Source of the DNA: Candidatus Planktophila lacus
Lineage (GTDB): Bacteria > Actinomycetota > Actinomycetes > Nanopelagicales > Nanopelagicaceae
DNA: 64,000 bases
Assembly: GCF_002288325.1 (NCBI RefSeq)
Contig: NZ_CP016780.1
Span: 1 to 64,000 of the forward strand
Direction: 5' to 3'
Of the stretch, positions 10,180 through 59,767 are shown one piece after another; the first letter of the stretch is position 1; every line of letters starts with the position of its first letter. The position numbers and the translations under genes were made by a program. The notes under the pieces were generated by a model. That model saw only the letters and a program-made list of their open reading frames with translations, did no database searches and was not told where the DNA came from.

Positions 10180-10188
10180 CTTTTAAAT

Positions 10189-10728: not shown

Positions 10729-10730
10729 TT
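10713..10730. repeat. 18-bp perfect palindrome at rhomboid stop
   Basis: AATTACACGCGTGTAATT is its own reverse complement and spans the last codons and the stop of the rhomboid gene. No T-run follows, so it does not look like a simple intrinsic terminator. It could be a protein-binding site. It heads a cluster of structured elements running to 10845. Confidence 0.75.
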
Positions 10731-10733
10731 CCT

Positions 10734-10762
10734 CCACACCTGTGGATGCGGCCTGTGGATAT
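10734..10762 (+). promoter_or_regulatory. Two DnaA-box-like sequences
   Basis: TGTGGATGC (10741-10749) and TGTGGATAT (10754-10762) match the DnaA box complement TGTGGATAA at 7 and 8 of 9 positions, in the same direction and 13 bases apart. The first is also the right half of a CCACA-CC-TGTGG inverted repeat (10734-10745). Near the origin such boxes could bind DnaA, but this is inference. Confidence 0.4.
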
Positions 10763-10776
10763 CTTTCTAAACGTGA

Positions 10777-10845
10777 AACTAAGGATTCCGAAGCGCAAGG
10801 ACTGTAAAAGGCTTTTCCCCAGTCCTTAGCAAGGAATCCTTAGTT
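10777..10845. terminator. Long interrupted hairpin between convergent genes
   Basis: AACTAAGGATTCC (10777-10789) pairs perfectly with GGAATCCTTAGTT (10833-10845). Inside it AAGGACTG (10797-10804) pairs with CAGTCCTT (10820-10827), and AAAAG/CTTTT can close the top. The result is a 13-bp plus 8-bp stem with internal loops. The right arm covers the stop codon of the minus-strand Fe-S gene. The likely role is a bidirectional transcription stop for rhomboid and the Fe-S gene, but no strong U-run follows on either strand. Confidence 0.6.
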
Positions 10846-12882: not shown

Positions 12883-12949
12883 AACGCGAGGTTACCGAGC
12901 GGGGCGGGAATAAGCAGGCAGGCCGAGGAGTTATACGGGATGCCCCAAC

Positions 12950-12970
12950 CTTGAGTCGCACCTACTCAAC
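12950..12970. promoter_or_regulatory. HAIR operator 1 (HspR binding site)
   Basis: CTTGAGT-N7-ACTCAAC matches the HspR-associated inverted repeat CTTGAGT-N7-ACTCAAG at 13 of 14 defined positions. It lies about 100 bases upstream of dnaK, whose operon ends with hspR. In Streptomyces and mycobacteria HspR represses this operon through such sites, with DnaK as co-repressor. Confidence 0.9.
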
Positions 12971-12972
12971 CT

Positions 12973-12993
12973 TTTGAGTAAGATGGACTCAGG
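12973..12993. promoter_or_regulatory. HAIR operator 2 (imperfect), overlapping dnaK promoter
   Basis: TTTGAGT-N7-ACTCAGG repeats the HAIR pattern 23 bases downstream of the first, with weaker arms (TTGAGT and ACTCA retained). A TAAGAT at 12979-12984, a plausible -10 element, falls in its spacer, so HspR bound here would block polymerase. About two helical turns separate the centres, which would favour co-operative binding; that is inference. Confidence 0.7.
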
Positions 12994-13067
12994 TTAGAGC
13001 AGCCTCAACCCCAGATCGGGCTTGAGATGAGCTAACAAGCTAAGAAACGTAAAAAGGAGCAATACAT

Positions 13068-42656: not shown

Positions 42657-43355
42657 TCATTTAAGTTTTAGAAATATTCTTTTCGGTAAAATTCTTACTA
42701 TGATGAAAAGATATTTAAGAACACTTGGTGCGTAAACTAGGCTTTTGCTCTTTGATAGCCCCTTTACGGATAGCAAAGCAACATGTTCTGGCGTTATAGA
42801 AAAGGGACGATTGCCTAATCGTTTTGTCATTTTCGTCACGACGAAACCAGGCCTAACTATGCATACATTAACTCCTGAATTATGCAGGTAATCAGAGAGC
42901 CCTCTCGCATAGAAATCTAGTCCAGCCTTAGTGGCACCGTATATATAATTTTCTTGCCTAGGCCTCAAAGACGCGACACTGCTGATGACTAGAATGGATC
43001 CATGGCCTTGCCATAACATCTTTTCGGAAACTGTCTTTAATGCAGCAATCGAGTTAGTGAAATTTATATTACATTGCTCAACCATTTGAGAGACACTAGA
43101 TTCGGGAGCAATACTCCCAAGCATTCCACTAGCGAGAATGAAAAGATCTATGTCAGCCCCATTAAATGAGTTCTCGATAACCTGTTCGTCAAATTTTGCA
43201 TTTAAATCTAGAATATAGTCAGCCATTTCGCTGATTCCTAGGCGCACAATTTTTGCATCTGGCGAAATATGCAATTTTTTCAAAATTGCATTCGCGATAT
43301 CACTGTTTGATCCTAAAACTAAAACATTCTGATACTCGCCGAAGCTATTCTTCAC
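42657..43355 (-). CDS. dprE2: Decaprenylphosphoryl-2-keto-ribose reductase-like SDR
   Basis: The 232-residue short-chain dehydrogenase has a nucleotide-binding N-terminus (VLVLGSNSDIANAI) and the catalytic Ser in VISSVAS with Tyr139-xxx-Lys143 (YGATK). It follows DprE1 with a 4-base overlap. DprE1 and DprE2 together epimerise decaprenylphosphoryl-ribose to decaprenylphosphoryl-arabinose, the only known arabinofuranose donor for actinobacterial wall arabinan. It is slightly shorter than the mycobacterial enzyme. Confidence 0.87.
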   Translation of the reverse strand: MKNSFGEYQNVLVLGSNSDIANAILKKLHISPDAKIVRLGISEMADYILDLNAKFDEQVIENSFNGADIDLFILASGMLGSIAPESSVSQMVEQCNINFTNSIAALKTVSEKMLWQGHGSILVISSVASLRPRQENYIYGATKAGLDFYARGLSDYLHNSGVNVCIVRPGFVVTKMTKRLGNRPFSITPEHVALLSVKGLSKSKSLVYAPSVLKYLFIIVRILPKRIFLKLK

Positions 43356-44686
43356 AGGTCAAGTCTCCTAGATTGATCCGAGACCCAAAAGCCAAGCGGG
43401 TCCATTTCCATTTTTATCCTTTTCCATTCCGAGAATTGCTCATACATGCTACGAAATACTCTTTGCGACAAACGCGAATCCTTAACCAAGTAAACTTTAC
43501 CGCCCATTTCTATGATGCGTCGATCCAAGTATTCAAGAAAATCACTCAAATTCGGTGTATTCCTCGGTACATCAATCGCTAGGGACCAACCAGGCTGCGT
43601 AAAACCCAAGAAACCAAGTGAATTAGGGCCCAATTTTTTTAATACGGACATAGGCGAAGCAATACGATTCTCCCTCAGCATGATCAATAACTCGTCTAGG
43701 AATTCGAATTTATTATCCGGAATAACAAATTGATACTGTAGAAAACCAGGCTTACCATAAAGATAATTCCAGTTCCCTACGGAATCTAAAGGGTGCATAA
43801 ATTTACGAACATCCACATTTTTTCTAAACGAGGGCTTGTTAAACCAAACTGAATTAAATAGGCGAACCGTGAATGGAGTAATAATGTTAAACCCGCGGCT
43901 AAAAAAAAGTCTAATTTTACGCGGTTCTGAGGCTTTAAACAAACTTCGTCCAGTAAATCCTGTTAATTCAGTGCGTTTTGAATGATTTCCTAGAGTCAAT
44001 ATCCCTCGTCCCGAATAATCACCTGAAATATCAATCCACGCCACGGAGTACTGAAATAATTTGTCTTGTGTTTGTAACAGGTCAGAAAGTTCAGCAAGAC
44101 TTTGAAATCTGAGATTCTTCGTAGAGATATAGGAAGACTCTATGGATTTTAATTTAATATCAGCTTCGAGAATTGTTCCAGTTAATCCTAAGCCGGCACA
44201 AGTAGCCCGAAACCAATCTCGCGTACTTCCTTCTGGGAACAAATCTCGCTCATCTCCATTAGCTAACAAAATTCTAATTCTTGCAACGTGGTCGCAAAAT
44301 GACCCGACTTTATGATGCGATTTTCCGTGAATGTCAGCGGCGATGGCTCCACCAATTGTCACATATTCAGTCCCAGGAACAACAAAAGGATATTTATGTT
44401 TAGCAATGGCTGCACGTTCCAATTCGCCAAGCGTGACGCCCGACCCACAACATACCAAATTGGCATTTTCAAGAAATGTGATTGATTTTAGAAACTTAGT
44501 CGAAATTGAAACACCATTTGAATTCAGAGCTGAATCGCCATAGGACCTTAAATTCCCCGTGGCTATAGCTCCGCGCCCGTCCGAATCTGAATTGAAGTCA
44601 TCCGAAGATGAAGCAATTCGCCTTGGCCTAGAAAAAATAGTTCTACCCCAACCTGCATGTGGAGTTGGTTCGACGAGGTTAACCAT
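43352..44686 (-). CDS. dprE1: Decaprenylphosphoryl-beta-D-ribose oxidase
   Basis: The 444-residue FAD enzyme oxidises the 2' position of decaprenylphosphoryl-ribose. FAD-binding motifs are NLRSYGDSA (45-53) and IGGAIAADIHGKSHHKVGSF (111-130), the latter nearly identical to the mycobacterial motif around the FAD-linked His132. The catalytic Lys is at about 402 in YLVKDSR. At the position of mycobacterial Cys387, the residue attacked by benzothiazinone drugs, the sequence reads GWSLAIDVP, with Ala370. It overlaps ubiA by 8 bases and dprE2 by 4. Confidence 0.93.
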   Translation of the reverse strand: MVNLVEPTPHAGWGRTIFSRPRRIASSSDDFNSDSDGRGAIATGNLRSYGDSALNSNGVSISTKFLKSITFLENANLVCCGSGVTLGELERAAIAKHKYPFVVPGTEYVTIGGAIAADIHGKSHHKVGSFCDHVARIRILLANGDERDLFPEGSTRDWFRATCAGLGLTGTILEADIKLKSIESSYISTKNLRFQSLAELSDLLQTQDKLFQYSVAWIDISGDYSGRGILTLGNHSKRTELTGFTGRSLFKASEPRKIRLFFSRGFNIITPFTVRLFNSVWFNKPSFRKNVDVRKFMHPLDSVGNWNYLYGKPGFLQYQFVIPDNKFEFLDELLIMLRENRIASPMSVLKKLGPNSLGFLGFTQPGWSLAIDVPRNTPNLSDFLEYLDRRIIEMGGKVYLVKDSRLSQRVFRSMYEQFSEWKRIKMEMDPLGFWVSDQSRRLDL

Positions 44687-45551
44687 AAATTGGAACCGCC
44701 AGAAGTACTATGACAACAATTCCGCATAGCGGAATGACGTAATCTTGGAAAATTAAATGTTCAGGGCTCTCCGCGTTTTCAAGTCCCCGCATCCAAGAAT
44801 ATCTCAAAAGTCCGGTGAGCATTGGAAACAGACTTGCCTTCACCCAGACGCTATCAGGGTACGTGCCTAACGCCCAAAGGAAATATGCGGTAAGGCATAG
44901 AGTAATTGCAAGGGTAATAACAGACTCCAAAAAGCTAACTGAATACCGCAAAACGACCTTGCGTGCATGTTGTTTCGGATACTTTTGTAATTCTGAAAGC
45001 CTCTTCGTGGCAATTATGAAGAGGGAGCCAAAAATAACAACAATCAAGAAATGTTCGGACACTGGAAGACCCAACAAAGCTGCACCCGCTAAAGGGCGAA
45101 GTAGAAAACCAAAAGTTAACATCACCATTTCAACAACAGGAACGTGTTTCAAGCCCAACGAATACAACAAGGTGTTTACGAAGTAAACATAGATGCAAAA
45201 GAGAAAATCAAGTGGAACAAACTTAGCGAAGGCCAGAATCAACAAAATTAGCAACAAGTTTACAACAACAAAGTCAATAACCTTCAGATCACCCTTCGCA
45301 AACGGACGATGGGACTTTGAAGCGTTTAACGCGTCATTCTTTCTGTCGATCCAGTCATTGGTGACATATCCCAAACTTGCAATGAACGAAAAAATCATAA
45401 AGCCCGAAACTAGTTTTGTAGTTGTGTCGTAAGTAAAAGTTATTCCAGCCGCAAATGGGGCTGCGAAGAGAAGTACGTTTTTCACCCACTGTTTAGGCCT
45501 GACCAGGACGCAATATGATAAAACTTTGATGGAGAAAATCGAGTTCTTCAT
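44679..45551 (-). CDS. ubiA: Decaprenyl-phosphate phosphoribosyltransferase (UbiA family)
   Basis: The 290-residue polytopic prenyltransferase moves phosphoribose from PRPP to decaprenyl phosphate, the first step to decaprenylphosphoryl-arabinose. The magnesium motif NDWIDRKND (65-73, NDxxDxxxD) and the RPKQWVKN start match Rv3806c rather than quinone-synthesis UbiA. It is the first gene of the overlapping ubiA-dprE1-dprE2 operon. A divergent GT-C gene begins 108 bases away. Confidence 0.92.
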   Translation of the reverse strand: MKNSIFSIKVLSYCVLVRPKQWVKNVLLFAAPFAAGITFTYDTTTKLVSGFMIFSFIASLGYVTNDWIDRKNDALNASKSHRPFAKGDLKVIDFVVVNLLLILLILAFAKFVPLDFLFCIYVYFVNTLLYSLGLKHVPVVEMVMLTFGFLLRPLAGAALLGLPVSEHFLIVVIFGSLFIIATKRLSELQKYPKQHARKVVLRYSVSFLESVITLAITLCLTAYFLWALGTYPDSVWVKASLFPMLTGLLRYSWMRGLENAESPEHLIFQDYVIPLCGIVVIVLLAVPIYG

Positions 45552-48168: not shown

Positions 48169-49068
48169 TTAAAGCCAGTCAGGTGTTACCTCAACCCAAT
48201 TATTTGGTGTGTTTGTTATAAATTCCTGACCCTTCACATTATACCGTGGGAAAGCAATCATGGATTCAGGAGATGACAGCAATCCCGAAAGATAGCTGAA
48301 TGTTGAATTAGAAATGATCAGCTTGGATGCACGCGACATTAACATAAGCACCTCCGCCGGATCGAAACTCGGATCATCATCCACCACAATTAGACTATTG
48401 ATTCCTTCAATAGATAAAAACTCTGGAACCTTCGAGTTATCATTACTAAAGACAACGACTAATTCATTTGATAGAGATACATTAAGCGATTCAAAAGCTC
48501 GAGCATAGTATTCTTTAGTCAAAATTCCATACGATGAAGGATTGTTAAAGTAGTCTCCGAATCTTAGGTGAACAGCTACATAATTTTTGTTGATTAGCTG
48601 TTCGGAGTATTTTAAAAATCTTTCTGATTTGGTCCTGAGCTGAAGTTTTCGAACTTCTTCAGGTAACAGAGAATAGTATTCAAAATTGGCGAACCAACCG
48701 CGAATTTCAACGGTACAAAATCCTCCTGTATTATTCTGAATTTCCCAAGTCAAATTTTTAATATTCGAACGATCCTCATCCAATTGTTTAATAATTTGGT
48801 TCAATGGAATAAATCTCGTGAGTTTTCGCATCATTTTCAAGTACAAGCCTTTAACCGTGTATTTAGAATAATTTTCAATAACTAGATTTTGATTTGGCTC
48901 CAAAAAAGACCTGATATCAAGCGTGCCGCGAGTGTGTGATTGATCAATTTCACTAAGGTCAAAGCGAATTTCCTGACATAACTCTCGAGTTAAGTACAAT
49001 GCGCCAAAATACTGTAAAAGTTGGTTGCCTAAGCCTCCGGCAGCTCTAACTCGAATGAGGTTAACCAT
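48169..49068 (-). CDS. GT11 fucosyltransferase-like protein 1
   Basis: The 299-residue protein has GGLGNQLLQYFGALYL at the N-terminus and the GDP-fucose motif AVHLRFGDY, both diagnostic of glycosyltransferase family 11 (alpha-1,2-fucosyltransferases). Some members use other sugars or acceptors. No GDP-fucose synthesis genes (gmd, fcl) are in the window, so donor supply must come from elsewhere. A second GT11 gene lies at 58841. Confidence 0.85.
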   Translation of the reverse strand: MVNLIRVRAAGGLGNQLLQYFGALYLTRELCQEIRFDLSEIDQSHTRGTLDIRSFLEPNQNLVIENYSKYTVKGLYLKMMRKLTRFIPLNQIIKQLDEDRSNIKNLTWEIQNNTGGFCTVEIRGWFANFEYYSLLPEEVRKLQLRTKSERFLKYSEQLINKNYVAVHLRFGDYFNNPSSYGILTKEYYARAFESLNVSLSNELVVVFSNDNSKVPEFLSIEGINSLIVVDDDPSFDPAEVLMLMSRASKLIISNSTFSYLSGLLSSPESMIAFPRYNVKGQEFITNTPNNWVEVTPDWL

Positions 49069-49264: not shown

Positions 49265-50341
49265 TTGAAATTTAACAATTGCGAAGATAGTGAACTTGAG
49301 TTGTGCACAAAGCCAATAGTCGCATTCGTTCATTTAGGAAACAATCCCGCTAGTACATTGACGTGGTATGCGTCAGAAGTCGATAAAAACTTAAGTAACA
49401 AACACCTTTGTTTAATCACAGATAATCCAAAAGAATTTCTAGATTTTCCTGGAGAAATCTTGATCTATGATCGATCGGAAATAAACAAAGGCCTAAGTAG
49501 ATTCTCAAAAACTAATTCCGCTTTCAAGAAGTTATCTGGAGGCTATTGGAAATACACGACCGAAAGACTTTTTGCGCTAAGTGCGCTCTCTTCTTGTTTT
49601 TCTGATAGTCACCCCGTAATTCATTTAGAATCAGATGTTCTACTGCTTGCAAAAGATGATCAAGTAAGAAATGTCTTAGTTAAGGTTAAGAAAACAAGCG
49701 TCGTAAGATATTCAGACTCAGACGGCATCGCCAGCATTTTGATAGCTCCCACCATATCTAATCTTATTCAAAGCCTAAATGCTTTGGGAATAATATTGCT
49801 GAACGATCGTCATATTTTTAGCGATATGGAATTACTCGGTAAAGCGCTGAACCAAGGCGCATTGAATGAGTTGCCAAATTCACCAATCGAAGCGTGGCCA
49901 ATAGATTCAGAAAAGAGTTATTCGATATTCTTCGACGGAGCATTCTTTGGACAATACTTGTTTGGCCTAGACCCAGTTCATTCACAGCAATACTCATTTA
50001 ACGGATACAAAAATCCCAACTGCGCATATCCGTTAAGTAAATCTATATGGGCATTGTTGGAGCCCTCTGAGTACGAAGGACTTTCCCTAGCCATACTTGA
50101 AAACAACCATATAAGTTTTCCGCTTTGCTTACACGTTCACAGTAAAATGTTGATTGAATATCCAAAAATTAATGAAGTCTTTTGGAGGAAACTTATATCA
50201 GATATCAATGCACAGATCTTCTCGCTCAAGGTTCCTGTTCACGGTTCTCAAATCCACTCAAGTAACATCAAGATCCAGCACCGAATGTTTATTTTCCTGT
50301 ACAAGAGGATACAAAATCTAAAAAAAGGACTTTTTTCTTAA
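49265..50341 (+). CDS. Putative glycosyltransferase-like protein
   Basis: The 358-residue protein was not assigned to a named family. It shows features of a GT-A nucleotide-sugar enzyme: YWKYTTERLFAL before an HLESDVLLL strand, where ESD may be the metal-binding acidic motif, and FFDGAFFGQYLFG later. There is no signal peptide and there are no membrane helices. The start is TTG with AAGAGG just upstream; no ATG occurs near the conserved N-terminal strand (IVAFVHLGNN). It precedes the WbqC unit by 21 bases. Confidence 0.6.
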   Translation: MKFNNCEDSELELCTKPIVAFVHLGNNPASTLTWYASEVDKNLSNKHLCLITDNPKEFLDFPGEILIYDRSEINKGLSRFSKTNSAFKKLSGGYWKYTTERLFALSALSSCFSDSHPVIHLESDVLLLAKDDQVRNVLVKVKKTSVVRYSDSDGIASILIAPTISNLIQSLNALGIILLNDRHIFSDMELLGKALNQGALNELPNSPIEAWPIDSEKSYSIFFDGAFFGQYLFGLDPVHSQQYSFNGYKNPNCAYPLSKSIWALLEPSEYEGLSLAILENNHISFPLCLHVHSKMLIEYPKINEVFWRKLISDINAQIFSLKVPVHGSQIHSSNIKIQHRMFIFLYKRIQNLKKGLFS

Positions 50342-50362: not shown

Positions 50363-51052
50363 GTGCGTATCGCGATCATGCAGCCATATTTCTTACCATA
50401 TATAGGTTATTTTCAATTGATATCCTCTGTGGACAAATTCATCTTGTATGACGACGTTCAATACACTAAGAAAGGGTGGATAAATCGAAATAAATTTCGC
50501 ACCTTGAGTGGCGAATGGAAATTTTCTATCGCAGTTGAGTCACATTCAGAAAAAGCAAAAATTTCAGAAATAAAAATTGCAAAAGAATATGACCCAGTCA
50601 AAATACTTACCCGAATAAAGAATGATTTAGGGCGACGTGATGGTTTTGAGAAAGAAGCCATGACTCTAATTTCCAATGTATTTGAAAAAGTAGATGAAAA
50701 CTTATTCAAGTATGTATCTCAATCCATTATTGAAATATCCAACTTTCTAGATATACCAAAAGATCGCTTTGCTGTTTCATCTGAATTAGGAGACTTTTCA
50801 ATGGAAAAAGGGGAGAATAAAGTAATTGAAATATGTAAGGCTTTAGGCGCAAAAAAATATATAAATCCAATTTCAGGATTCGAACTCTACAGTCGAGAAA
50901 ATTTTAGTTCCAACGGGATTACTCTAAATTTTTTGAGCCCAAATTTAGAGAAAAGTTGTGAAAATGGCTACCCTGTTTCTATCGCTCAAGAATTGCTAAT
51001 GATGAAGAAAAAAGATGTCGTAAGCCAATTATCGTCAGGGACTATCGAGTGA
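50363..51052 (+). CDS. WbqC-like protein
   Basis: The 229-residue protein begins IAIMQPYFLPYIGYFQLI with FILYDDVQYTKKGWINRN following, the hallmark of the WbqC family. Members occur in O-antigen and exopolysaccharide loci, and their exact reaction is not settled. It is the first gene of a five-gene run joined by overlaps of 4, 4, 4 and 10 bases. The start is GTG. Confidence 0.88.
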   Translation: MRIAIMQPYFLPYIGYFQLISSVDKFILYDDVQYTKKGWINRNKFRTLSGEWKFSIAVESHSEKAKISEIKIAKEYDPVKILTRIKNDLGRRDGFEKEAMTLISNVFEKVDENLFKYVSQSIIEISNFLDIPKDRFAVSSELGDFSMEKGENKVIEICKALGAKKYINPISGFELYSRENFSSNGITLNFLSPNLEKSCENGYPVSIAQELLMMKKKDVVSQLSSGTIE

Positions 51053-52023
51053 ATACCTACCAGTCTAAAGAATTCAGATGGAGGAAACTTGGTAATTTGG
51101 TAAATCCAAGTGAGTCAGGTATTCCAGCCTGGATTAACGATTATGTTCAAGCTCCAAACTGCATGGTCTACGAAGATTTCGTCAGAGTTTACTTCTGTAC
51201 ACGAGAACCGAAAGATTCAAGGAATCAATACGTAAGTCGTGTTGGCTTCTTCGATACAGGTTTTGAAAACAATTTTTCGAATAAGAAGTTCAGCGATTCT
51301 CCAGTACTTGCTCTTGGGCCTCTTGGAGCCTTTGATGAATTCGGGACTTATCCATTTAGTCCAATCAGATACAAAGGGAAAGTTATCGCTGCTTATGGAG
51401 GGTGGACGCGTCCGGAAGCTACCCCATTTGACGTGAGCATCGGAATGGCTAGAGAAAATTCTGCAGGCTCCGATTTTGCTCGAGTTGCAAACGGACCGAT
51501 TTTAACTAAATCTTTAAAGGAACCATTTGTTATTTCAAGTCCGAAACTTCGTTTCTTTAATAATCAGTTTTATTTATTTTATATTGCCGGAAATGAGTGG
51601 GTAACTTCTCATTCGGTTCCAGACCCAATTTACTCAATCAAATTAGCTGTTTCGAAAGACGGTGAGAACTGGGAAAAGATAGGAAAAAACCTAATCCCAG
51701 ATATTCTCTTCCAAGAGGCACAAGCTTCTCCTGATGTCATCTACATCAACGGGACGTATCATATGTTCTTTTGCTACAGACATGGCACAGACTTCAGAGA
51801 CAATAGTCGAGGATATCGTATCGGTTACGCACAAAGTCAGGATCTAATAAATTGGACAAGAGATGACAGTAAATCCGATTTGGAGACTTCAGATGAAGGA
51901 TGGGATTCTGAAAGTGTTAGTTATCCCCACGTTTTCGAGTTTAAAGGTAAAACTTACATGATGTACCTTGGAAATGGTGTGGGAAAAACCGGCATAGGGC
52001 TTGCAAAGTTGGAAGATAAATGA
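51049..52023 (+). CDS. Five-bladed beta-propeller protein 1 (GH43/GH130-like)
   Basis: The 324-residue protein has repeated propeller blades resembling glycoside hydrolase clans with five-bladed folds: GAFDEFGTYPFSP, LKEPFVISSPKL, FYLFYIAGNEW and SQDLINW. No signal peptide is visible, so it should be cytoplasmic, odd for a hydrolase. It is paralogous to the next gene. Conserved acidic residues in GAFDE, in KEP and in the QEAQAS motif could form an active site. The start is GTG, overlapping the WbqC stop. Confidence 0.72.
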   Translation: MNTYQSKEFRWRKLGNLVNPSESGIPAWINDYVQAPNCMVYEDFVRVYFCTREPKDSRNQYVSRVGFFDTGFENNFSNKKFSDSPVLALGPLGAFDEFGTYPFSPIRYKGKVIAAYGGWTRPEATPFDVSIGMARENSAGSDFARVANGPILTKSLKEPFVISSPKLRFFNNQFYLFYIAGNEWVTSHSVPDPIYSIKLAVSKDGENWEKIGKNLIPDILFQEAQASPDVIYINGTYHMFFCYRHGTDFRDNSRGYRIGYAQSQDLINWTRDDSKSDLETSDEGWDSESVSYPHVFEFKGKTYMMYLGNGVGKTGIGLAKLEDK

Positions 52024-52985
52024 AAATAAGGCTAAAAAACAGGGGCCTAATCTTCAATATAAATGAGTTCAAACCATTTTCGGATTATCAATTTGCTCAA
52101 TCACCTCAATTACTTGCCTTTGAAGACTATTACCGAGTTTATTTCAGTTCACGCCATAAAAATTTAGTCAATGGGATGCCCATTTCCGAGGTTCTGTATG
52201 TGGATTTCGATCCTAATTTTAAGTCAATTATTGATTACAGCCGAAAAGAAGTACTGAATAAACCCATTATGGGAGCTTTTGATGAGCACGGGGTATTTCC
52301 ATTTCATCCATTTAGAACCTCAGATAATGAGCTATTCGCCTACTTAAGTGGATGGAGTCGCAGAACCTCGGTACCCGTGGAAACGAGTATTGGAATAGCA
52401 AAAAGTGTTGATGATGGTAAGACATTTACTCGACTTGGGCCAGGCCCGATATTGACGGCTAGCCTGAATGAACCATTCCTCGTGGGAGATCCTTATATCG
52501 TCGAGCAAAACAAATTATTACACATGTTCTATATCGCAGGAGTCGAATGGAAGTATTTTGAGAGCGAAACTGACCCTCAGCGAGTATACAAAATAAAGAA
52601 AGCTACATCGATCGATGGCATCAACTGGATTAAGAATCAATTTGAATTAATCAGTGACGCCATCGGACCTGATGAATGCCAAGCACTTCCAACAGTCGTT
52701 AAAAATCAGCAAGAATTCATCATGGCATTCTGCTTTAGATCTGCCTACGGATTCCGTAATGAACCAAAACTGGGTTATAAATTAGACTTCGCAGCATCCA
52801 AAGATTTACTCAATTGGGAACGCAGGAAGATTGAAGTAACAATTTCCGAACATGAATCTAGTTGGGATCGCGACATGCAGTGTTATCCAAACTTGAGTCT
52901 ATTAAAGGGAAAGTTGCACTTACTTTATAATGGAAATAATTTTGGAAAATTTGGATTCGGGCTTGCAGTTGAGGATCTTTCATGA
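52020..52985 (+). CDS. Five-bladed beta-propeller protein 2, tandem paralogue
   Basis: The 321-residue protein is related to the preceding one over its full length: GAFDEHGVFPFHP, LNEPFLVGDPYI, LHMFYIAGVEW, DECQALPT and SKDLLNW line up with the same segments. The divergence is considerable, so the copies probably have different roles or form a heteromer. It has no signal peptide and overlaps both neighbours by 4 bases. Confidence 0.72.
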   Translation: MKIRLKNRGLIFNINEFKPFSDYQFAQSPQLLAFEDYYRVYFSSRHKNLVNGMPISEVLYVDFDPNFKSIIDYSRKEVLNKPIMGAFDEHGVFPFHPFRTSDNELFAYLSGWSRRTSVPVETSIGIAKSVDDGKTFTRLGPGPILTASLNEPFLVGDPYIVEQNKLLHMFYIAGVEWKYFESETDPQRVYKIKKATSIDGINWIKNQFELISDAIGPDECQALPTVVKNQQEFIMAFCFRSAYGFRNEPKLGYKLDFAASKDLLNWERRKIEVTISEHESSWDRDMQCYPNLSLLKGKLHLLYNGNNFGKFGFGLAVEDLS

Positions 52986-53413
52986 ATAAAGACAAAATTC
53001 AAGTGCAATTTGAAATCACGTTGGAAGAATTAGTAGGATATTTTGAAACAATTGACCAAGAATACTTGAATCAATTACTTATTGAGGTGAATTTATCTCA
53101 ATACGCAACAAAACTGATCGAACGGGCTAAAAAGATCATTTTGCGTGACGGATCAAAAATTATTGCATCGCTCTTCTATTATGAAAGTGAGGATGAAATA
53201 TTTATCAGTCACTTAAGTGTATGCAAATCTTCTGAAAGGCAAGGACTCGGAAAGACTGTTGTAGAGTCGCTTAAGTCCAAGGTCCGCCAAAGAGTGATTA
53301 TCCTTGAGGTCGATGTTAATAACATAAATGCTCGGAAGTTCTATGAGATAATGGGATTCAAGGAAAAATCAAATAGATCTAAAAAAATAGTAATGGAGCT
53401 ATCGTGGACGTGA
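52982..53413 (+). CDS. GNAT-family acetyltransferase
   Basis: The 143-residue protein has a GNAT core with the acetyl-CoA pyrophosphate loop in SSERQGLGKTVVESL and the C-terminal NINARKFYEIMGF. It probably acylates an amino sugar or similar group made by the surrounding locus. It overlaps the upstream propeller gene by 4 bases and the downstream methyltransferase by 10. Confidence 0.85.
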   Translation: MNKDKIQVQFEITLEELVGYFETIDQEYLNQLLIEVNLSQYATKLIERAKKIILRDGSKIIASLFYYESEDEIFISHLSVCKSSERQGLGKTVVESLKSKVRQRVIILEVDVNNINARKFYEIMGFKEKSNRSKKIVMELSWT

Positions 53414-54141
53414 GAAACTATGACAATGAAGCCCTTGACAACGAGTCGCGCCAATATAGATATTCAGTCGATTTCCATGTCAGAGAATTCTTTATTCAAC
53501 GACTTTTTGATAATGGGTATATAAACAAAAATGACAAATGTCTTGAAGTGGGTAGTCATGATGGATCTATGACACGCCAATTACTAGAAATATATGCGAA
53601 CGTAGATGTGTTGGAACCAGCGGAAATTTTTCATGAAAAATTAAAATCAGAGTTCGGTGAAAGAATCAATCTATTTGCCGGGCTTACATATGAGGTTGAC
53701 TTTGAGAAAAGTTATGATGCAATATTTCTGGTGCATGTTCTTGAACACATGGAAAATCCTATTGAAGAACTAGCTAGACTTGGGACGTGGCTTAGAAATA
53801 AAGGCAAAATTTTTGTGCTGGTACCAAATGCTCATGCACTTTCTCGACAAATTGCTGTCTCAATGGGTCTAATCAACGCATGCGAGGCTGTTATGCCAGG
53901 GGAAGCAGCCCAAGGACACCTTAGAACTTATTCACTTAAGCAACTTGAACAGCATGCAGAAGAGTCGGGATTAATTGTCTTGGAAACCGGTGGAATAATG
54001 ACAAAACCATTGGCTAATTTTCAGTTAGATTCCGCACTTGAAAAGGGAATTATTTCCTTTGAGTACCTAACCGCATTAAATGAATTATCAAAGATTGATG
54101 GAACAATGGGGTCATCCATTTACTTAGTGCTGAGTAACTAA
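53404..54141 (+). CDS. Class I SAM-dependent methyltransferase
   Basis: The 245-residue methyltransferase has motif I CLEVGSHDGSMTRQLL, the acidic VLEPAE, and FLVHVLEHMENP, typical of UbiG/Methyltransf_23 enzymes. A methyl group added to a sugar or amino acid of the glycan is likely. The start is GTG, within the end of the GNAT gene. It closes the WbqC-propeller-propeller-GNAT-methyltransferase unit and is convergent with the next gene, overlapping by 4 bases. Confidence 0.83.
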   Translation: MDVRNYDNEALDNESRQYRYSVDFHVREFFIQRLFDNGYINKNDKCLEVGSHDGSMTRQLLEIYANVDVLEPAEIFHEKLKSEFGERINLFAGLTYEVDFEKSYDAIFLVHVLEHMENPIEELARLGTWLRNKGKIFVLVPNAHALSRQIAVSMGLINACEAVMPGEAAQGHLRTYSLKQLEQHAEESGLIVLETGGIMTKPLANFQLDSALEKGIISFEYLTALNELSKIDGTMGSSIYLVLSN

Positions 54142-55040
54142 AGAACCCGCCGCCGTAGATATTTTGCAACATGCATAACACCAAGACCCGGCAGTTGGTT
54201 GGTGGAGTTTTCGCAAACTATGCATGTATTTAACAGATTTTTTCCCGCAGGTTTAAATGCATGAGTGCTGCGTCGGATTTCTTCAGTCCTTGGATGCATA
54301 CCACGCGCATCTTCATATCCAATGTCTTTTACGAAAGAATTTATCGGCGCAACATAAGGAATGCCTAGACACAACGCTGCATAAGACATCAATGCGTCAC
54401 CATAGCTATCGGTATTTACAGCGGCATTAAAAATTCGGTACCAACGCTCCACCACTAGTTCTTGTTTAAGTCTATTAATTGAATAAATCTTTCTAAATTG
54501 GCTTTGAATCAACTCTCTAGAAATACTTTTGTCATTCCAAACTTTAAGAAACGATTCAAACACCTCTGAAGTCAAACTTGTTGCCCATTGTTCCGGAAAA
54601 TATGTGTAACGAAAATCAAGAGTAGTCGCTGAATGAGGCGTTGTGGAAAATGCAGTAGCAATGGAAGGTAATCCTTGACTCTCCGTATGTCTCTTAAGAA
54701 AATCCAACCCTTCGCCCTCAATAAAATTATCTTCTTCTAATGAAATGAGTCGTCTGTCTGATTCGAAAACCTTGCCCATTATTCGAATTGCATGAGAAGT
54801 TAGGCCTTTATTAACGTCCCAAACCACCGGGATGATTCTTGAATCGAAATTTGCTAATTTTTCCGCTGTGGCAATAGTCTCCTTTCTCCAAGACGCCTCC
54901 TCTTTTGATGCATTTGCACGTAGCCCGTCTATAGAAACGTAGAGTTTATCTAAACCACCCCAGTTGCAGATTCGCTTTATAGCTCTAGCTGTCTGCTCTG
55001 GTCGTCTGTACGAAAAGAGAACTGTATTAGCTTTTTTCAA
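54138..55040 (-). CDS. Glycosyltransferase-like protein (GT-A fold)
   Basis: The 300-residue protein starts with TVLFSYRRPEQTARAI and has LYVSIDG and RRLISLEEDNFI, where EEDN probably replaces the DxD metal motif. This pattern matches GT-A transferases acting on glycolipids or glycoproteins. A WYRIFNAAV segment and GDALMSYAAL follow. It is 1 base from rfbB on the same strand. Donor and acceptor are unknown. Confidence 0.68.
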   Translation of the reverse strand: MKKANTVLFSYRRPEQTARAIKRICNWGGLDKLYVSIDGLRANASKEEASWRKETIATAEKLANFDSRIIPVVWDVNKGLTSHAIRIMGKVFESDRRLISLEEDNFIEGEGLDFLKRHTESQGLPSIATAFSTTPHSATTLDFRYTYFPEQWATSLTSEVFESFLKVWNDKSISRELIQSQFRKIYSINRLKQELVVERWYRIFNAAVNTDSYGDALMSYAALCLGIPYVAPINSFVKDIGYEDARGMHPRTEEIRRSTHAFKPAGKNLLNTCIVCENSTNQLPGLGVMHVAKYLRRRVL

Positions 55041-55041
55041 G

Positions 55042-55980
55042 TTAAATGTTCTCTCTTACAATTTCCTCTAATGTCTTTTCAAAATCTAGAGTTGGAATAA
55101 ATCCGAGCTCATGAAATGCCTTTTCCGAATTAAGAGAGTAACGGCGATCGTGACCCTTTCGGTCAGGAACATGAACAATCTGATTGGAAGGGAGTTGAAG
55201 TAAATCGAGAATTCTGTGAGCGACGTCCAAATTTGTTAAATGGTATCCAGAACCCAGATTATAAACTTGGTTATCATTGCCCTTCGTCGCAGCTAACCAG
55301 ATTCCGTTTGCATGATCTCTTACGTTTAACCACTCACGCGTCTGAAGACCGTCTCCATACAACGGGAGATCCTTTTTCGCTATCGCACATTTAACAAAAA
55401 ACGGAATCAACTTTTCTTGGAACTGTCCTAAGCCATATGTATTGGATCCTCGCGTAATCTTAAATTTTAATTTATGAGTTCTTCCCGCGGCCATAATTAA
55501 AAGTTCTGCAGCTGCTTTAGAAGCAGAATAAGGAGAACTGGGGAAGATTCCATCCCCCTCTTTTGAATCACCTTCTTCCTTATCTCCATAAACTTCGTCT
55601 GTAGAAACTTGTACCAATTCTGTTTCAGGATTTTCTACGATTATGTTAATTAAAGATTGCACCCCGGAGACATTGGTTTCTAAGAAAAGATTGGGGTTTA
55701 ATATTGAATTGTCCACATGTGATTCGGCAGCAAAATTAAATACATACCTGCTTCCTGGAATATGAATACGTAAGGCAGCCTCGTTATTTATGCTTGATTC
55801 CACGAAGATTAACCGTGGGTCCGAATCAACAACATTAAGCCTATTAAGATCTGCGGCGTACGTTAATGAGTCGATCACTATTAGTTGATCAATTGAGGGT
55901 GAAATACGCTCGTCCGTAAGAAGCAGGCGAACAAATTGGGAACCGATGAATCCGGCACCGCCTGTGACTACAATCCGCAT
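55042..55980 (-). CDS. rfbB: dTDP-glucose 4,6-dehydratase
   Basis: RfbB converts dTDP-glucose to dTDP-4-keto-6-deoxyglucose. The 312-residue protein has GGAGFIGSQ at the N-terminus, the catalytic STDEVYGD (Thr-Asp-Glu) and YSASKAAAE (Tyr-xxx-Lys). It is a little shorter than usual. rfbA lies divergently 40 bases away; rfbC and rfbD are not in view, so the product may go to an amino sugar through the DegT enzyme rather than to rhamnose. Confidence 0.93.
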   Translation of the reverse strand: MRIVVTGGAGFIGSQFVRLLLTDERISPSIDQLIVIDSLTYAADLNRLNVVDSDPRLIFVESSINNEAALRIHIPGSRYVFNFAAESHVDNSILNPNLFLETNVSGVQSLINIIVENPETELVQVSTDEVYGDKEEGDSKEGDGIFPSSPYSASKAAAELLIMAAGRTHKLKFKITRGSNTYGLGQFQEKLIPFFVKCAIAKKDLPLYGDGLQTREWLNVRDHANGIWLAATKGNDNQVYNLGSGYHLTNLDVAHRILDLLQLPSNQIVHVPDRKGHDRRYSLNSEKAFHELGFIPTLDFEKTLEEIVRENI

Positions 55981-56020: not shown

Positions 56021-56902
56021 ATGAAAGGCTTGATTCTTGCTGGAGGCACGGGTTCGAGGTTGTATCCCAGCACATTATCCACAAATAAGCATCTTCTGCC
56101 AGTTTATGACAAACCGTTGATCTACTATCCATTAAGCACGTTACTTATGGCAGGCTGTAGAGATATTGCGATAGTTAGCAACGAGGACCACCTGAATTCT
56201 TTTCAGAAACTTATTGGAGACGGCTCACGATTCGGAGCGACAGTAACTTATTATTCTCAAACTTCGGCCAATGGAATTGTTGGAGCCCTCAAATCTGCAA
56301 GAAATCTAAATGAAGATGATTCAGCGCTAGTAATTTTAGGCGACAATATTTTTTTTGGAGGAGGAATCGGGGGAAGCTTTAAATCTCTAATGGGCAACAC
56401 CTCAGCTTCAATTTGGGTTAAGAAAGTGCACAATCCTTCAGATTATGGAGTAATAACATTAGATGTCCAAGATATACCTTTGGAAATTGTGGAAAAACCT
56501 AGAAATCCAAATAGTAATTTGGCTATAACTGGCCTCTACTACCTCCCCCAAGGATTTGTTAATTTGTTAGACAAGATTGAGCCTAGTGAGCGTAATGAAT
56601 TAGAAATCACAGACTTAATTGAGTATTTCATGAAAAAAAGGAAACTTGAAGTGAAACACTTAAGTCGAGGTACGGCCTGGTTTGATGCTGGCACGCCGGA
56701 ACGTTTATTTATGGCAGCAGATTATGTGCGAATTATGCAGGAACGCAGTGGAGAAATTGTGGGATCTCCAGAAGAAGTTTCAGTTCGAAATGGATTACTT
56801 ACTATTCAATCATTTAAAGAACTTACCAATCAGATGCCTGAGTCTGATTATAAAGAATCCCTGCTCTCTATTGAGCTACTAGCAAAAAACGAATTTTCAT
56901 GA
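56021..56902 (+). CDS. rfbA: Glucose-1-phosphate thymidylyltransferase
   Basis: RfbA makes dTDP-glucose from dTTP and glucose-1-phosphate. The 293-residue protein has the activation motif GGTGSRLYPST, then NKHLLPVYDKPLIYYPLS, ILGDNIFFG and the lysine in VEKPRNP. WFDAGTPERL near the C-terminus is the family signature. It overlaps the downstream aminotransferase by 4 bases. Confidence 0.95.
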   Translation: MKGLILAGGTGSRLYPSTLSTNKHLLPVYDKPLIYYPLSTLLMAGCRDIAIVSNEDHLNSFQKLIGDGSRFGATVTYYSQTSANGIVGALKSARNLNEDDSALVILGDNIFFGGGIGGSFKSLMGNTSASIWVKKVHNPSDYGVITLDVQDIPLEIVEKPRNPNSNLAITGLYYLPQGFVNLLDKIEPSERNELEITDLIEYFMKKRKLEVKHLSRGTAWFDAGTPERLFMAADYVRIMQERSGEIVGSPEEVSVRNGLLTIQSFKELTNQMPESDYKESLLSIELLAKNEFS

Positions 56903-58002
56903 AGTATCCACTAATCCGCCCTGATGTACCGGAGCCGAAATTTTGGATAAATCAACTTAACTCTGCTTATGAAGAAAGCCATTTCTCGAACGGTGGACGT
57001 ATCTGGCAAGAATTCAACAAAAAAGTTGTAGAAAAAATCAGAGCCAGTGCAGCAGTCGGTGTAGCAAATAATACCGTTGGGCAAGTGGCAGCTTTACATG
57101 CAGTTGAAATTTCCGACCAGTTGGTTTTTATTTCTAATTTTACTTTTCCAGCAACTTTACAGGCGGTTCATATGGCCGGTGGAATACCGGTAATCTGCGA
57201 TACAGATGACTGGAGTTGGGAAATATCACTTGATTCCGTGAAGTCAGGTATAAAAATGTTTGGAAAACCAAAGGCAGTGGTGGTGACCAGAGTCTTTGGG
57301 CAAAGGCTCAATCACGCTGAGCTAATTGATTTCCTTGCATCAGAGAATATTGAATTGATTTTTGACTCGGCTGCGGCATTTCCGCTTGCCGAGCTAAATA
57401 AAAATACAGAAACCCTCAGGGAGGTTTATTCTCTGCATGCTACAAAAGCATTTGGAATAGGGGAAGGTGGGATCGTAACCGGACCAGATCGCTTCATAAA
57501 AAGCGTCTGGAAGCATTCTAATTTTGGTTTCACTTCACCAGACGAATTCTCTGATGGAAATAATGCAAAAATGGACGAATTCGCTGCCGCTAGAGGAATA
57601 GCCGCGCTTGATAAATTACCCGAGACTTCAGAGAAGCGCAAGAAATTTATAAAGGACACCTATTCCGGGATATTTGAATCTTCGGGGTATCGGCATATCG
57701 ACATAAACTCAGATCAATTGTGGAGCCTATTTCCAGTGCAATTCAAACAAAATGAGGAGCTATCTATTTTTTCAAACCATCTCTTGCAGAAAGAAATTTT
57801 AAGTAAAAAGTATTACTCACCAAGTATGAGCAAAGGTTACAAGGGTAATGCAAAAATGCTACTTACTGATGACCTGCGAAATTCTGAAAATGCAGCAAAT
57901 ACGGTTCTTTGTTTACCGGTCTACTCGACTTTTACATCAGAAGAAACCGAGTACATCCGAGAAAGCGTTAAGGAAGCATTTGAAAAAGTAATGGATTTAT
58001 GA
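56899..58002 (+). CDS. DegT/DnrJ/EryC1/StrS-type sugar aminotransferase
   Basis: The 367-residue PLP enzyme is of the sugar-aminotransferase family. The likely PLP lysine is Lys183 in LHATKAFGIGEGG, and the ring-binding Asp is Asp156 in IFDSAAA. These enzymes aminate keto-sugars such as dTDP-4-keto-6-deoxyglucose made by RfbB. Linkage to rfbA by a 4-base overlap supports that substrate. Sugar-dehydratase members have His in place of the Lys, so this one should be a true aminotransferase. Confidence 0.88.
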   Translation: MKYPLIRPDVPEPKFWINQLNSAYEESHFSNGGRIWQEFNKKVVEKIRASAAVGVANNTVGQVAALHAVEISDQLVFISNFTFPATLQAVHMAGGIPVICDTDDWSWEISLDSVKSGIKMFGKPKAVVVTRVFGQRLNHAELIDFLASENIELIFDSAAAFPLAELNKNTETLREVYSLHATKAFGIGEGGIVTGPDRFIKSVWKHSNFGFTSPDEFSDGNNAKMDEFAAARGIAALDKLPETSEKRKKFIKDTYSGIFESSGYRHIDINSDQLWSLFPVQFKQNEELSIFSNHLLQKEILSKKYYSPSMSKGYKGNAKMLLTDDLRNSENAANTVLCLPVYSTFTSEETEYIRESVKEAFEKVMDL

Positions 58003-58844
58003 ATTCAATAAATAAACTTTCAATTGTTGTACCTATTGGTAAAATGGCAGGCAGGCTTGAGAATCTGGAACGAACCCTCAATTCAACCAAATCTAATGAG
58101 ATAGAATGGCTACTCGTTCACGACCATTTCGAAAACAAAACGTGTATAGAGATAGATGAATTAATTCAAAGATGTAAACCATCTGGAGAAGTAGTTCGCC
58201 TAGAAACGAACCATAGAGGTGTGGGTAATGCCAGGAACACAGGACTGAGGGCCGCAAGTGGAAACTGGCTTTGTTTCGTAGATTCAGATGATGTTGCTGA
58301 TATCTCTAAGTACTTGGAAATGCTTAATAAAGCTGCTCTGAATAGAATGGTGTTTGGAGTGGGTGGGTATATTCATGTTGAAATCAAAAGAGCCGAGTAT
58401 AAAAGAATCATTGATGTCAAGAAATCTAACGCGAAAACGTTGAAGGAAATTGCAAAGCATCCAGGTCTCTGGCGCTGGATTGTTCGCCGTGATCGTATTG
58501 CAGAAACTGAATTCTACGATGTGCCAATGGGTGAAGATCTTCTTTTCATAAAAGATCTCAATCCAGATTTTAACGAGATTTTCTTTTCGCAAGACGTTAT
58601 ATACACGTATAAAGTTGGAGATCCAGAGCAGGCCACAAATAATGCTGCCTCACTGAAGTCAATTAGTTCAAGCCTCAGGATTGCTATCCAAAATGACAGA
58701 CAAAATGGAGATCTCAAATACTTATCAAAGAGAATAACGTTTCGGATCGGTATATCTACATTGAAGAGAAATCCTGTGAGTTTGTTCAACTTGAAACTAA
58801 TTTTGGAATCAACAATCAATTTGAAAAAATACCTATTCAAATGA
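57999..58844 (+). CDS. Family 2 glycosyltransferase
   Basis: The 281-residue protein has a GT2 GT-A domain with GVGNARNTGLRAASGNWLCF followed by VDSDD (94-98), the DxD metal and nucleotide motif. The C-terminal half has MGEDLLFIKD (ED motif). No membrane helix is evident. It overlaps both neighbours by 4 bases, within the rfbA-led plus-strand operon. Confidence 0.87.
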   Translation: MNSINKLSIVVPIGKMAGRLENLERTLNSTKSNEIEWLLVHDHFENKTCIEIDELIQRCKPSGEVVRLETNHRGVGNARNTGLRAASGNWLCFVDSDDVADISKYLEMLNKAALNRMVFGVGGYIHVEIKRAEYKRIIDVKKSNAKTLKEIAKHPGLWRWIVRRDRIAETEFYDVPMGEDLLFIKDLNPDFNEIFFSQDVIYTYKVGDPEQATNNAASLKSISSSLRIAIQNDRQNGDLKYLSKRITFRIGISTLKRNPVSLFNLKLILESTINLKKYLFK

Positions 58845-59767
58845 GTCAACTAGAATCTTGCCGCGTTTTGCTATTTGGTGGTTTAGGAAATCAATTATTT
58901 CAAATAGCCGCTGGATTACACGCGGCTAATGGACGGCCATTGGTGATCGACACCTCCTTTATTGATAAAAAAAATAATAAGAATTGGTTTTACGAACATA
59001 GCAAATTTGCAAAGATTAATGAGGTAGTAATTGACAATTCGTCTTCATTAAACTGGTTTTCGAAAAGACTAATCGGATTAGCAATTAGAAGCAGTACCAG
59101 GGAGGTAATCTTCGACAAGCAAAAAGTTAAGCTACTTAATTCTAGAAGAGTTCTATCTAAGTTTCTTGGCAATTTAGTTTTCAGCAATTCAAAAGTATAT
59201 ATTGCAAATGGTATTGGTTTTGATTCAGAAGTTCCAACCAACTCGAAAAATGCAACCTTAATCGGATATTTTCAAAGTTATAGATGGATTGAATTAGATA
59301 AGAGAACTTTAACCACAATCCAAAAATTAATTGGCTATAGATCTGATCGTCAAAGAAGTTCAGGCGAAGTACTTTTGCAAGTAAGACTTGGAGACTTTGA
59401 ATCTACACCGGGTTTTCAGGCAATAGACTTTTCGTATATTAACAATGCTATAAAACAAATTCGCGAAAACCTCGAAATAACATCTATCGTGGTGTACTCA
59501 GATGATTCTGTACGTGCAAAAAATCTATTACAAGATTGGCGAGATATAGAGTTAATCTTTGATGAATCTGATCAGTTGCATCCCTTGACTACTTTGAATG
59601 AAATGACTTCCTTTCAAAACCACGTTATCTCAAGTTCCACTTTTGGAATATGGTGCGCCTTCCTAGCGCCGGAAAGTCAAATTGTTGTAGCCCCGACTCC
59701 CTGGTTCCCTAAATCGGTTGAACCAAGAGACTTGTTACCTCCAACTTGGTTCAGAGTGGAAAGGTAA
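58841..59767 (+). CDS. GT11 fucosyltransferase-like protein 2
   Basis: The 308-residue protein starts with LLFGGLGNQLFQIAAGLHAA and has LLQVRLGDFE, where Gln replaces the usual His of the HxRxGD donor motif. It is a diverged relative of the GT11 protein at 48169. The His-to-Gln change may alter donor choice. It is the last of the overlapping rfbA-led genes; the ABC exporter follows after 49 bases. Confidence 0.8.
   Translation: MSQLESCRVLLFGGLGNQLFQIAAGLHAANGRPLVIDTSFIDKKNNKNWFYEHSKFAKINEVVIDNSSSLNWFSKRLIGLAIRSSTREVIFDKQKVKLLNSRRVLSKFLGNLVFSNSKVYIANGIGFDSEVPTNSKNATLIGYFQSYRWIELDKRTLTTIQKLIGYRSDRQRSSGEVLLQVRLGDFESTPGFQAIDFSYINNAIKQIRENLEITSIVVYSDDSVRAKNLLQDWRDIELIFDESDQLHPLTTLNEMTSFQNHVISSSTFGIWCAFLAPESQIVVAPTPWFPKSVEPRDLLPPTWFRVER

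Follow-up and report, generated by a model that had tools for sequence, protein, structure and literature searches.

A candidate cassette for an aminoacylated amino sugar around a WbqC-family protein and paired propellers in Candidatus Planktophila lacus

What could five overlapping genes for a WbqC-family protein, two propeller proteins, a GNAT and a methyltransferase make together? The genes lie in the first 64,000 nucleotides of contig NZ_CP016780.1 of Candidatus Planktophila lacus, the stretch called the window here. The original prediction was a cytoplasmic pathway that builds or trims an unusual modified sugar or side group. Our reading, to which we give a probability of about 0.66, is that these genes make up the greater part of a mobile cassette for an aminoacylated, acylated and methylated nucleotide-activated amino-dideoxyhexose, with WbqC as the ligase.

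The five-gene unit and the amino-sugar genes

The predicted five-gene overlapping unit was confirmed, with the same ORFs and families. All five ORFs are on the plus strand, in the order WbqC, P1, P2, GNAT and methyltransferase (Table 1), and the ORF list gives overlaps of 4, 4, 4 and 10 bases at the four junctions within 50363-54141. A convergent minus-strand gene (54138-55040) limits the unit at its 3' end. Because the unit starts 21 bases after the ORF at 49265-50341, transcription may begin further upstream than WbqC. A promoter and terminator scan gave fewer sites than shuffled sequences did.

Table 1. Genes of the unit and nearby amino-sugar genes, with positions in the window
Feature	Position	Strand	Evidence
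WbqC-family protein	50363..51052	+	PF08889 169.5 bits; AlphaFold pLDDT 90.7; BshC 4wbd Z 13.2
Propeller paralogue P1	51049..52023	+	Model pLDDT 91.8; five-bladed GH130/GH43-like fold
Propeller paralogue P2	52020..52985	+	38% identity to P1; conservation across 78 P2 sequences
GNAT N-acyltransferase	52982..53413	+	PF00583 6.1e-10
SAM-dependent methyltransferase	53404..54141	+	PF13489 (Methyltransf_23) 1.5e-15; closest solved structure 2p7h, E 9.2e-40
RmlB-type nucleotide-sugar 4,6-dehydratase (label read from Pfam match)	55042..55980	-	PF16363 3.2e-53, PF01370 3.1e-50
RmlA-type glucose-1-phosphate thymidylyltransferase	56021..56902	+	TIGR01207 275 bits, below 360.65 cut-off
DegT sugar aminotransferase	56899..58002	+	PF01041 5.7e-47; best NCBIfam TIGR04427 (DesI) 121.8 bits, cut-off 650

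A DegT gene, the only full-length PF01041 match in a search of the genome itself, lies 2.8 kb downstream of the unit, beside the rmlA/rmlB-type genes. Candidates for the three dTDP-Qui4N pathway enzymes, RmlA, RmlB and a C4 aminotransferase, are present, with RmlA and DegT below their equivalog cut-offs. The sugar would most likely be 4-amino-4,6-dideoxyglucose, of the viosamine type. The best model for each of three DegTs tested from cassettes of relatives was the DesI 4-aminotransferase, all three under its cut-off. Since identity between the window DegT and those of the cassettes does not exceed 27%, and the window DegT also falls below the DesI cut-off, amination at C4 is weakly indicated for the window sugar. 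FdtA-type genes, which presumably point to C3, are carried by some relatives.

Spread and gene order in relatives

A scan with P1 found 263 relatives, and the best 80, which come from many phyla, were kept as loci. Among these best 80 of 263, P2 was the neighbour of P1 in 80/80, and a methyltransferase was present in 78, WbqC in 76 (plus an uncounted fragment where the L010 contig ends), a DegT sugar aminotransferase in 72 and a GNAT in 62. The full order DegT-WbqC-P1-P2-GNAT-MT was kept in 42/80, counting genes at most 6.5 kb from P1. With P2 beside P1 in every locus and the six-gene order in 42, chance grouping is excluded. DegT is usually the sixth gene of the unit. The suggested search thus found WbqC with paired propellers, and the genes were together in the examined loci; scattered genes would have spoken against the original prediction.

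In a survey of 300 genomes of one order, WbqC was found in 22 of the 30 propeller genomes, one of which (the centre genome) had been picked for its cassette, and in 20 it lay within 10 kb. Locus L076 has the propellers, no WbqC and no recognised DegT. The WbqC gene is intact in Rhizobium sp. CIAT894 (L007) and interrupted in R. leguminosarum UPM791. The surroundings of the cassette vary between plasmid, polysaccharide and flagellin settings; a search for phage carriage of P1 gave no match. When the cassette genes were compared in pairs, with 62-77 loci left for each gene by the length filters, their distance correlations ranged from 0.31 to 0.82. The lowest were those of pairs with the methyltransferase, which may therefore be exchanged more freely than the other genes.

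The claim that no described system has this composition stands in part. In Dickeya zeae WH1, a methyltransferase, a glycosylase, WbqC, DegT, two hypothetical proteins and one other lie between fliA and fliC (PMC9650423), so that most of the composition has been printed at least once; the available part of that paper gives the genes as a list without interpretation and names no GNAT. A flagellar setting likewise applies to the Pseudomonas syringae viosamine island (vioA, vioM, vioT, vioS, vioB, vioR, acp), which uses an aminotransferase and a methyltransferase, and N-acylates Qui4N, to produce a modified flagellin sugar (PMC3927599). In that island, going by the available text, 3-hydroxybutyryl is the N-acyl group and acyl-carrier genes accompany it (PMC3927599). 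The cassette has WbqC, two propellers and a GNAT instead; none of the acylation genes vioS, vioR and acp is among the five genes of the window.

The WbqC-family protein as a candidate ligase

Membership of the WbqC family is clear (curated PF08889 cut-off 21.3 bits, E 1.2e-49). The literature available to us that names WbqC gives it no function. Among the matches listed, the nearest fold to the predicted model was BshC 4wbd (rmsd 3.4, 218/229 residues aligned), the next entry stood at Z 8.9, and class I aminoacyl-tRNA synthetases and PPAT were found at Z 7-9. The model thus has the BshC/HUP nucleotide-binding fold. BshC, of bacillithiol biosynthesis, joins cysteine to an amino sugar. The BshC proteins compared are 526-549 residues long, as against 229 for WbqC, and the likeness of the predicted folds is not matched in sequence profiles: WbqC gave no match to the BshC family PF10079 at E up to 1, and a probability of 1% against six BshC proteins by hhalign. 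The link between the two is therefore one of predicted fold. Profile kinship to BshC or to FemAB-like proteins was rejected, and no credible sequence relative was found among solved structures.

Replacements of WbqC in relatives also favour a ligase role. In L013 and L017 an ATP-grasp protein takes the place of WbqC between DegT and P1; these two proteins are 85% identical and represent one lineage, and a six-frame profile search found no WbqC in either locus. Similarly, FemAB-like transferases adjoin single propellers in 7 loci, in genomes without WbqC. As to the link with amino sugars, 60 WbqC loci were taken from two orders, and in 36 of them a DegT gene lay within about 1.5 kb of WbqC; the set includes L164, the source of the centre genome and hence picked for its propeller. 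The WbqC alignment comprised 58 of the 76 locus rows and the window's own protein.

Bacterial O-antigens are known to carry amino acids on amino sugars, among them N-acetylglycyl, D-alanyl, seryl and aspartyl groups, and the enzyme attaching them is not named in the available text of either source (PMC10609480, PMC3210612). The E. coli O123 cluster, of the order DegT-WbqC-x-GNAT-MaoC, belongs to a strain whose Qui4N bears N-(3-hydroxybutyryl)-D-alanyl (PMC10609480). The O123/O186 cluster resembles the cassette in having rfbB, rfbA, DegT, WbqC and GNAT and an N-acylated amino acid on Qui4N, and its WbqC is 34% identical to that of the window over 229 columns. It differs in that the 21 kb covered contain no propeller and in having a 324-residue protein between WbqC and GNAT; this protein was considered as a third propeller and rejected. 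O123 has its aminoacylated sugar although propellers are missing from that stretch, so they are not needed for the aminoacylation step. Shigella dysenteriae 7, cited as the source of WbqC and with a cluster known here from citations, has N-acetylglycyl-Qui4N (PMC10609480). Four other E. coli serogroups, O7, O39, O49 and O116, have VioA and showed no WbqC in the parts of their clusters that were examined. DNA searches for an E. coli O121 WbqC gave no WbqC match; one met O123 instead.

Taken with the O123 chemistry, the modelled fold and the replacements suggest that WbqC is likely an amino acid-amino sugar ligase, forming an amide at the expense of ATP. A comparable step is known in the Wbp/Vim linking-sugar pathway of Porphyromonas gingivalis, where a dedicated protein, the putative N-acetyltransferase VimA, decides whether Ser or Gly is set on the amino sugar (PMC7468200); VimA is not a WbqC, and propellers are not named in the available part of that source.

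A rather improbable alternative is that WbqC adds an acyl group other than an amino acid and that the propellers shape this acid, perhaps by ring closure to 5-oxoprolyl. Hydroxylated and methylated 5-oxoprolyl caps are indeed known on amino-dideoxy sugars (PMC10609480), and near the propellers one locus (L052) has a 3-hydroxyacyl-CoA dehydrogenase gene and another (L043) a second methyltransferase gene. However, the examined stretch of E. coli O49, in which WbqC is absent, contains VioA together with a NeuD-type transferase and MaoC, so that WbqC seems dispensable for making acyl caps. Moreover, P1 groups with glycosidases and phosphorylases among the fold matches listed.

The propeller pair and the proposed pathway

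P1 and P2 had been described as tandem paralogues without signal peptides, and both points hold. They align over 294 columns, share the motif GAFDExGxxPFxP, and have no hydrophobic stretch at the N-terminus (over residues 1-45, the highest Kyte-Doolittle mean of any 15-residue span is 0.12 for P1 and 0.07 for P2). One propeller alignment comprised the window's P1, 58 of the 80 P1 rows from the loci and 11 P2 rows. In the propeller tree, support was 0.995 for the P2 clade (69 sequences), 0.996 for the P1+P2 clade and 0.10 for the P1 clade node; judged from these sequences, a single duplication is the likely origin. Conservation was read from 81 P1 and 78 P2 rows after length filters. One invariant residue set is common to both, and further invariants are found only in P2 (78 sequences). 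Invariant residues include Q34, D96, E97, R121, E158, E223, R244 and D286.

The predicted hydrolase folds fared well as folds and poorly as hydrolases. P1 has weak profile matches to GH32N, GH130 and GH43, of which only GH32N (PF00251) is over its cut-off, with 26.1 bits against 22.1 across just 46 residues; GH130 (PF04041) reached 24.9 bits, short of 26. P2 gave 12.1 bits for GH32N, no match to PF04041 at E up to 1, and no profile match over a curated cut-off. Among the matches listed for the P1 model were BT_0996 (Z 28.9) and a GH130 phosphorylase (Z 28.0), and enzymes with the five-bladed propeller of the GH130/GT108/GH43 kind lay at Z 24-29. P1 is unlike these enzymes in its residues. The invariant GH130 Asp, D142 of BT3780 (PMC4599007), aligns with S227 of P1, or with Y101 when the blades are taken in structural-match order, and in 81/81 sequences the first site is S or C and the second Y. 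The catalytic acids of GH43/GH32, which we take to precede the inner-strand proline by one or two positions, are absent from all five P1 blades in the 81 sequences, and P2 has only D157.

That the propellers are ordinary hydrolases trimming sugars, in a catabolic or remodelling operon, is in our view very improbable. The fold, the weak GH32N/GH43/GH130 matches and the public annotation of P1 as 'glycosylase' favour it, but the acids and a secretion signal are missing and the partner genes are biosynthetic. Secreted or canonical hydrolases were accordingly rejected, and of the two activities predicted at the outset, building agrees with the grouped genes and biosynthetic partners, while trimming is not favoured because the catalytic residues are absent. 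It is also unlikely, though less so than either alternative above, that the two propellers work in the cytoplasm as glycosyltransferases or phosphorylase-like transferases and use the cassette sugar to make a disaccharide, in a small glycan assembly line. P1 is closest in fold to BT_0996 and GH130 phosphorylases among the matches listed, GT108 enzymes of the same five-bladed fold are dual transferase-phosphorylases (PMC8950772), and several invariant propeller arginines could bind phosphate. Against this, the GH130 Asp is replaced in P1, and a gene set kept across plasmid, polysaccharide and flagellin settings suggests that the cassette makes the sugar while each locus provides its own transferases.

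Beside the observed gene content, order, spread, predicted folds, conservation and replacements, we infer all reactions of the preferred aminoacylation scheme. RmlA/RmlB-type enzymes and DegT would make the amino sugar; WbqC would activate an amino acid and link it through an amide bond to the amine of the sugar. P1 and P2 would act in the cytoplasm on the sugar or side group, without the known GH130/GH43 catalytic acids. The GNAT, which in the window is divergent (median 21% identity), would cap the free amine of the attached amino acid or, alternatively, the sugar amine. A formyltransferase sits between P2 and the methyltransferase in L029 and L080 and may do the same capping in some relatives. 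The methyltransferase would add a methyl group; its closest solved structure, 2p7h, is presumably that of locus tag ECA1738, for which a literature search found nothing. Locus-specific glycosyltransferases would place the finished sugar on O-antigen, exopolysaccharide or flagellin. A literature search found no glycan structure of a cassette-bearing strain.

A wider proposal, which we regard as tentative and put at somewhat below even odds, is that the WbqC proteins, a large family, are amino acid-amino sugar ligases that stand alone, need no tRNA and consist of a minimal BshC-like HUP domain, and that P1 and P2 are an obligate pair, a new non-hydrolytic class completing the aminoacyl cap, in a widely exchanged cassette.

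The five-gene set is no local oddity, as it is found in bacteria of many phyla, and very probably serves to attach an amino acid to a rare amino sugar of cell-surface glycans. An orphan propeller pair, together in 80/80 loci (the best 80 of 263), is brought to notice, and the WbqC family gains a testable candidate reaction, for which the E. coli serogroups offer natural contrasts.

Distribution and gene order of the cassette

A tblastn search of plasmid records matched 31, and the three examined in full (Rhizobium leguminosarum pRlvE, Rhizobium sp. CIAT894 and Tateyamaria omphalii) share the five-gene order of the window: WbqC, the tandem propeller paralogues P1 and P2, GNAT and a SAM-dependent methyltransferase (MT). 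All three also have a gene for a DegT sugar aminotransferase 5′ of WbqC. In pRlvE, an IS3 transposase gene appears to split the WbqC gene in two; the uninterrupted counterpart is present in CIAT894 (L007). Two further plasmid records that were examined combine a single propeller with WbqC, a methyltransferase and an acetyltransferase, and one has a propeller without any of these three.

Four P1 sequences, used as queries against a species-genome collection, found 263 relatives; the analysis covers the best 80. By record titles, which may be wrong for assembled genomes, these 80 loci include members of Bacteroidota, Alpha-, Beta-, Gamma- and Deltaproteobacteria, Acidobacteria, Verrucomicrobia-type groups, Planctomycetota, Chloroflexi, Omnitrophota, Patescibacteria, Campylobacteraceae and Paenibacillus. 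P1 is followed by P2 in all 80, and MT (78/80), WbqC (76/80), DegT (72/80) and GNAT (62/80) are also frequent. Allowing for intervening genes except within the P1-P2 pair, the order DegT-WbqC-P1-P2-GNAT-MT is complete in 42 of the 80 loci, and 12 more show DegT-WbqC-P1-P2-MT with no recognised GNAT. A cassette with a role in amino-sugar making is strongly supported.

The cassette in the window

The five ORFs with overlapping junctions of the original prediction were borne out by ORF calls. This copy is an outlier, with identities to its relatives of at most 53% for P1 and 41% for both WbqC and MT. Its region has a G+C content of 38-40% (from 44 kb on) vs 45-52% in the first 40 kb, and none of 59 other genomes sampled nearby (36 of the same genus; many incomplete) gave a strong propeller match, which together suggest horizontal gain. 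Weak partial matches were found in 6 of these 59, often incomplete, genomes (best 5e-14).

The host genome, a single contig of 1.38 Mb, encodes one DegT aminotransferase spanning its family, the seven other matches being partial (E 1e-9 or weaker). As this is the sole family-spanning DegT, the cassette and the window DegT gene are very likely devoted to one and the same sugar, even though, at 27% identity at best, the protein is not close in sequence to the usual cassette DegTs.

The ORF preceding WbqC, which has no Pfam or NCBIfam match, may lie in one transcript with it. The consecutive genes at 42657-45551 presumably resemble the actinobacterial decaprenyl-phospho-arabinose pathway.

Features of the window and of two compared loci
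Feature	Location	Strand	Remark
WbqC, P1, P2, GNAT, MT	window 50363-54141	+	
ORF, 358 residues	window 49265-50341	+	stops 21 bases upstream of WbqC
GT family 11 (fucosyltransferase-type) gene	window 48169-49068	-	one side of cassette
GT family 11 (fucosyltransferase-type) gene	window 58841-59767	+	other side of cassette
Short-chain dehydrogenase, FAD-binding and UbiA-type genes	window 42657-45551	-	consecutive
WbqC matches	pRlvE (L002) 10006-11936		flank IS3 transposase gene on both sides; other cassette genes open
324-residue protein	E. coli O123/O186 (L196) 12778-13752		between WbqC and GNAT; not a propeller

WbqC as a probable amino acid ligase

The co-occurrence of WbqC and propellers across genomes was found in a propeller-independent sample of 300 genomes from the order of the L053 genome (centre genome included). 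WbqC was present in 52, a propeller in 30 and both in 22 (one-sided Fisher p 5e-13), within 10 kb on one contig in 20 of the 22. Among 60 WbqC loci (the best 30 of 63 and the best 30 of 32 places in two orders), the flanks of about 1.5 kb contain a DegT gene in 36 and a propeller in 8. With the 300-genome co-occurrence, these counts tie WbqC primarily to the making of amino sugars and secondarily to propellers. Adjacent WbqC and DegT genes of Bacteroides thetaiotaomicron (BT2884-BT2885) were jointly lowered in an iron experiment, according to PMC10434189.

Several loci carry other proteins in this setting. In L013 and L017, where a six-frame profile search found no WbqC, the slot between DegT and P1 is filled by ATP-grasp proteins that are 85% identical; that of L013 scores above the cut-off for ATP-grasp_3 and weakly matches PylC-like and L-amino-acid-ligase models. 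Both genomes contain only distant WbqC matches (~90 bits). Seven loci (L139-L145) combine DegT, a single propeller and an adjoining FemAB-like protein (Acetyltransf_6 7/7, FemAB 4/7) in genomes without WbqC, with FdtA in both loci checked (L139, L141) and a hexapeptide transferase likewise (L139, L140). L076 lacks both WbqC and DegT, and L010 has only a WbqC fragment at a contig edge. One of the chief arguments that WbqC forms an amide is the presence of three unrelated types of amide-forming protein in this setting.

The GNAT place also varies: a formyltransferase gene (L029, L080) or another GNAT (L043) lies between P2 and MT, and ORF lengths suggest GNAT-MT fusions in L022, L040, L065 and L075. 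Near the propellers, L052 carries a 3-hydroxyacyl-CoA dehydrogenase and L043 a further methyltransferase, which points to side groups of greater complexity; ORFs comparable in length to these additional genes occur in L061 and L063.

A sequence search of solved structures found no credible relative of WbqC. Its AlphaFold model is confident (pLDDT 90.7, pTM 0.88), and the top Foldseek match was the bacillithiol biosynthesis enzyme BshC (4wbd; E 3.6e-3, probability 0.99), with a second aligner giving Z 13.2 and rmsd 3.4 over 218/229 residues. Glutamyl- and tyrosyl-tRNA synthetases (Z 8-9) came next, and phosphopantetheine adenylyltransferases matched at Z ~7; all these are HUP-fold enzymes. The N-terminal stretch QPYxxPYIGYFQL, nearly invariant in the WbqC alignment, in our reading occupies the place of their HxGH motif. 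As profile comparison with six BshC proteins found no similarity, the likeness is confined to the predicted fold. Three converging lines make WbqC a likely amino acid ligase.

E. coli O-antigens and the role of the propellers

A review table (PMC10609480) lists 4-amino-4,6-dideoxyglucose (Qui4N) as carrying N-[(S)-3-hydroxybutyryl]-D-alanyl in the O-antigen of E. coli O123 and N-acetylglycyl in the S. dysenteriae 7 O-antigen; PMC5532660 attributes WbqC to a paper on the S. dysenteriae 7 cluster. The order in E. coli O123/O186 is rfbB-rfbA-wzx-DegT-WbqC-x-GNAT-MaoC. By annotation and six-frame profile search of partial stretches, not every cluster being reached to its end, VioA is present and WbqC absent in E. 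coli O7, O39, O49, O116, L198 and L200. In a seventh region, L202, the DegT is a different one, and WbqC is missing there too. N-acetylated Qui4N is cited for O116 in PMC3210612. MaoC is common to O49 and O123, whereas only O123 has WbqC.

For the P1 model (pLDDT 91.8), fold comparison gave BT_0996 at Z 28.9 and GH130 phosphorylases at Z 28.0. The GH130 invariant Asp described in PMC4599007 was not found in the propellers. Residues Q34, D96, E97, R121, E158, E223, R244, R250, D286 and N309 (P1 numbers) are conserved to at least 93% in both 81 P1 and 78 P2 sequences, and D157, H90, N304 and C288 in P2 only. Neither protein looks degenerate. The assignment of the propellers is one of predicted fold, not of reaction. 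To judge from E. coli O123, aminoacylation can proceed without propellers, which would therefore do something further. The 324-residue protein of O123 may perform the step done by P1/P2 elsewhere.
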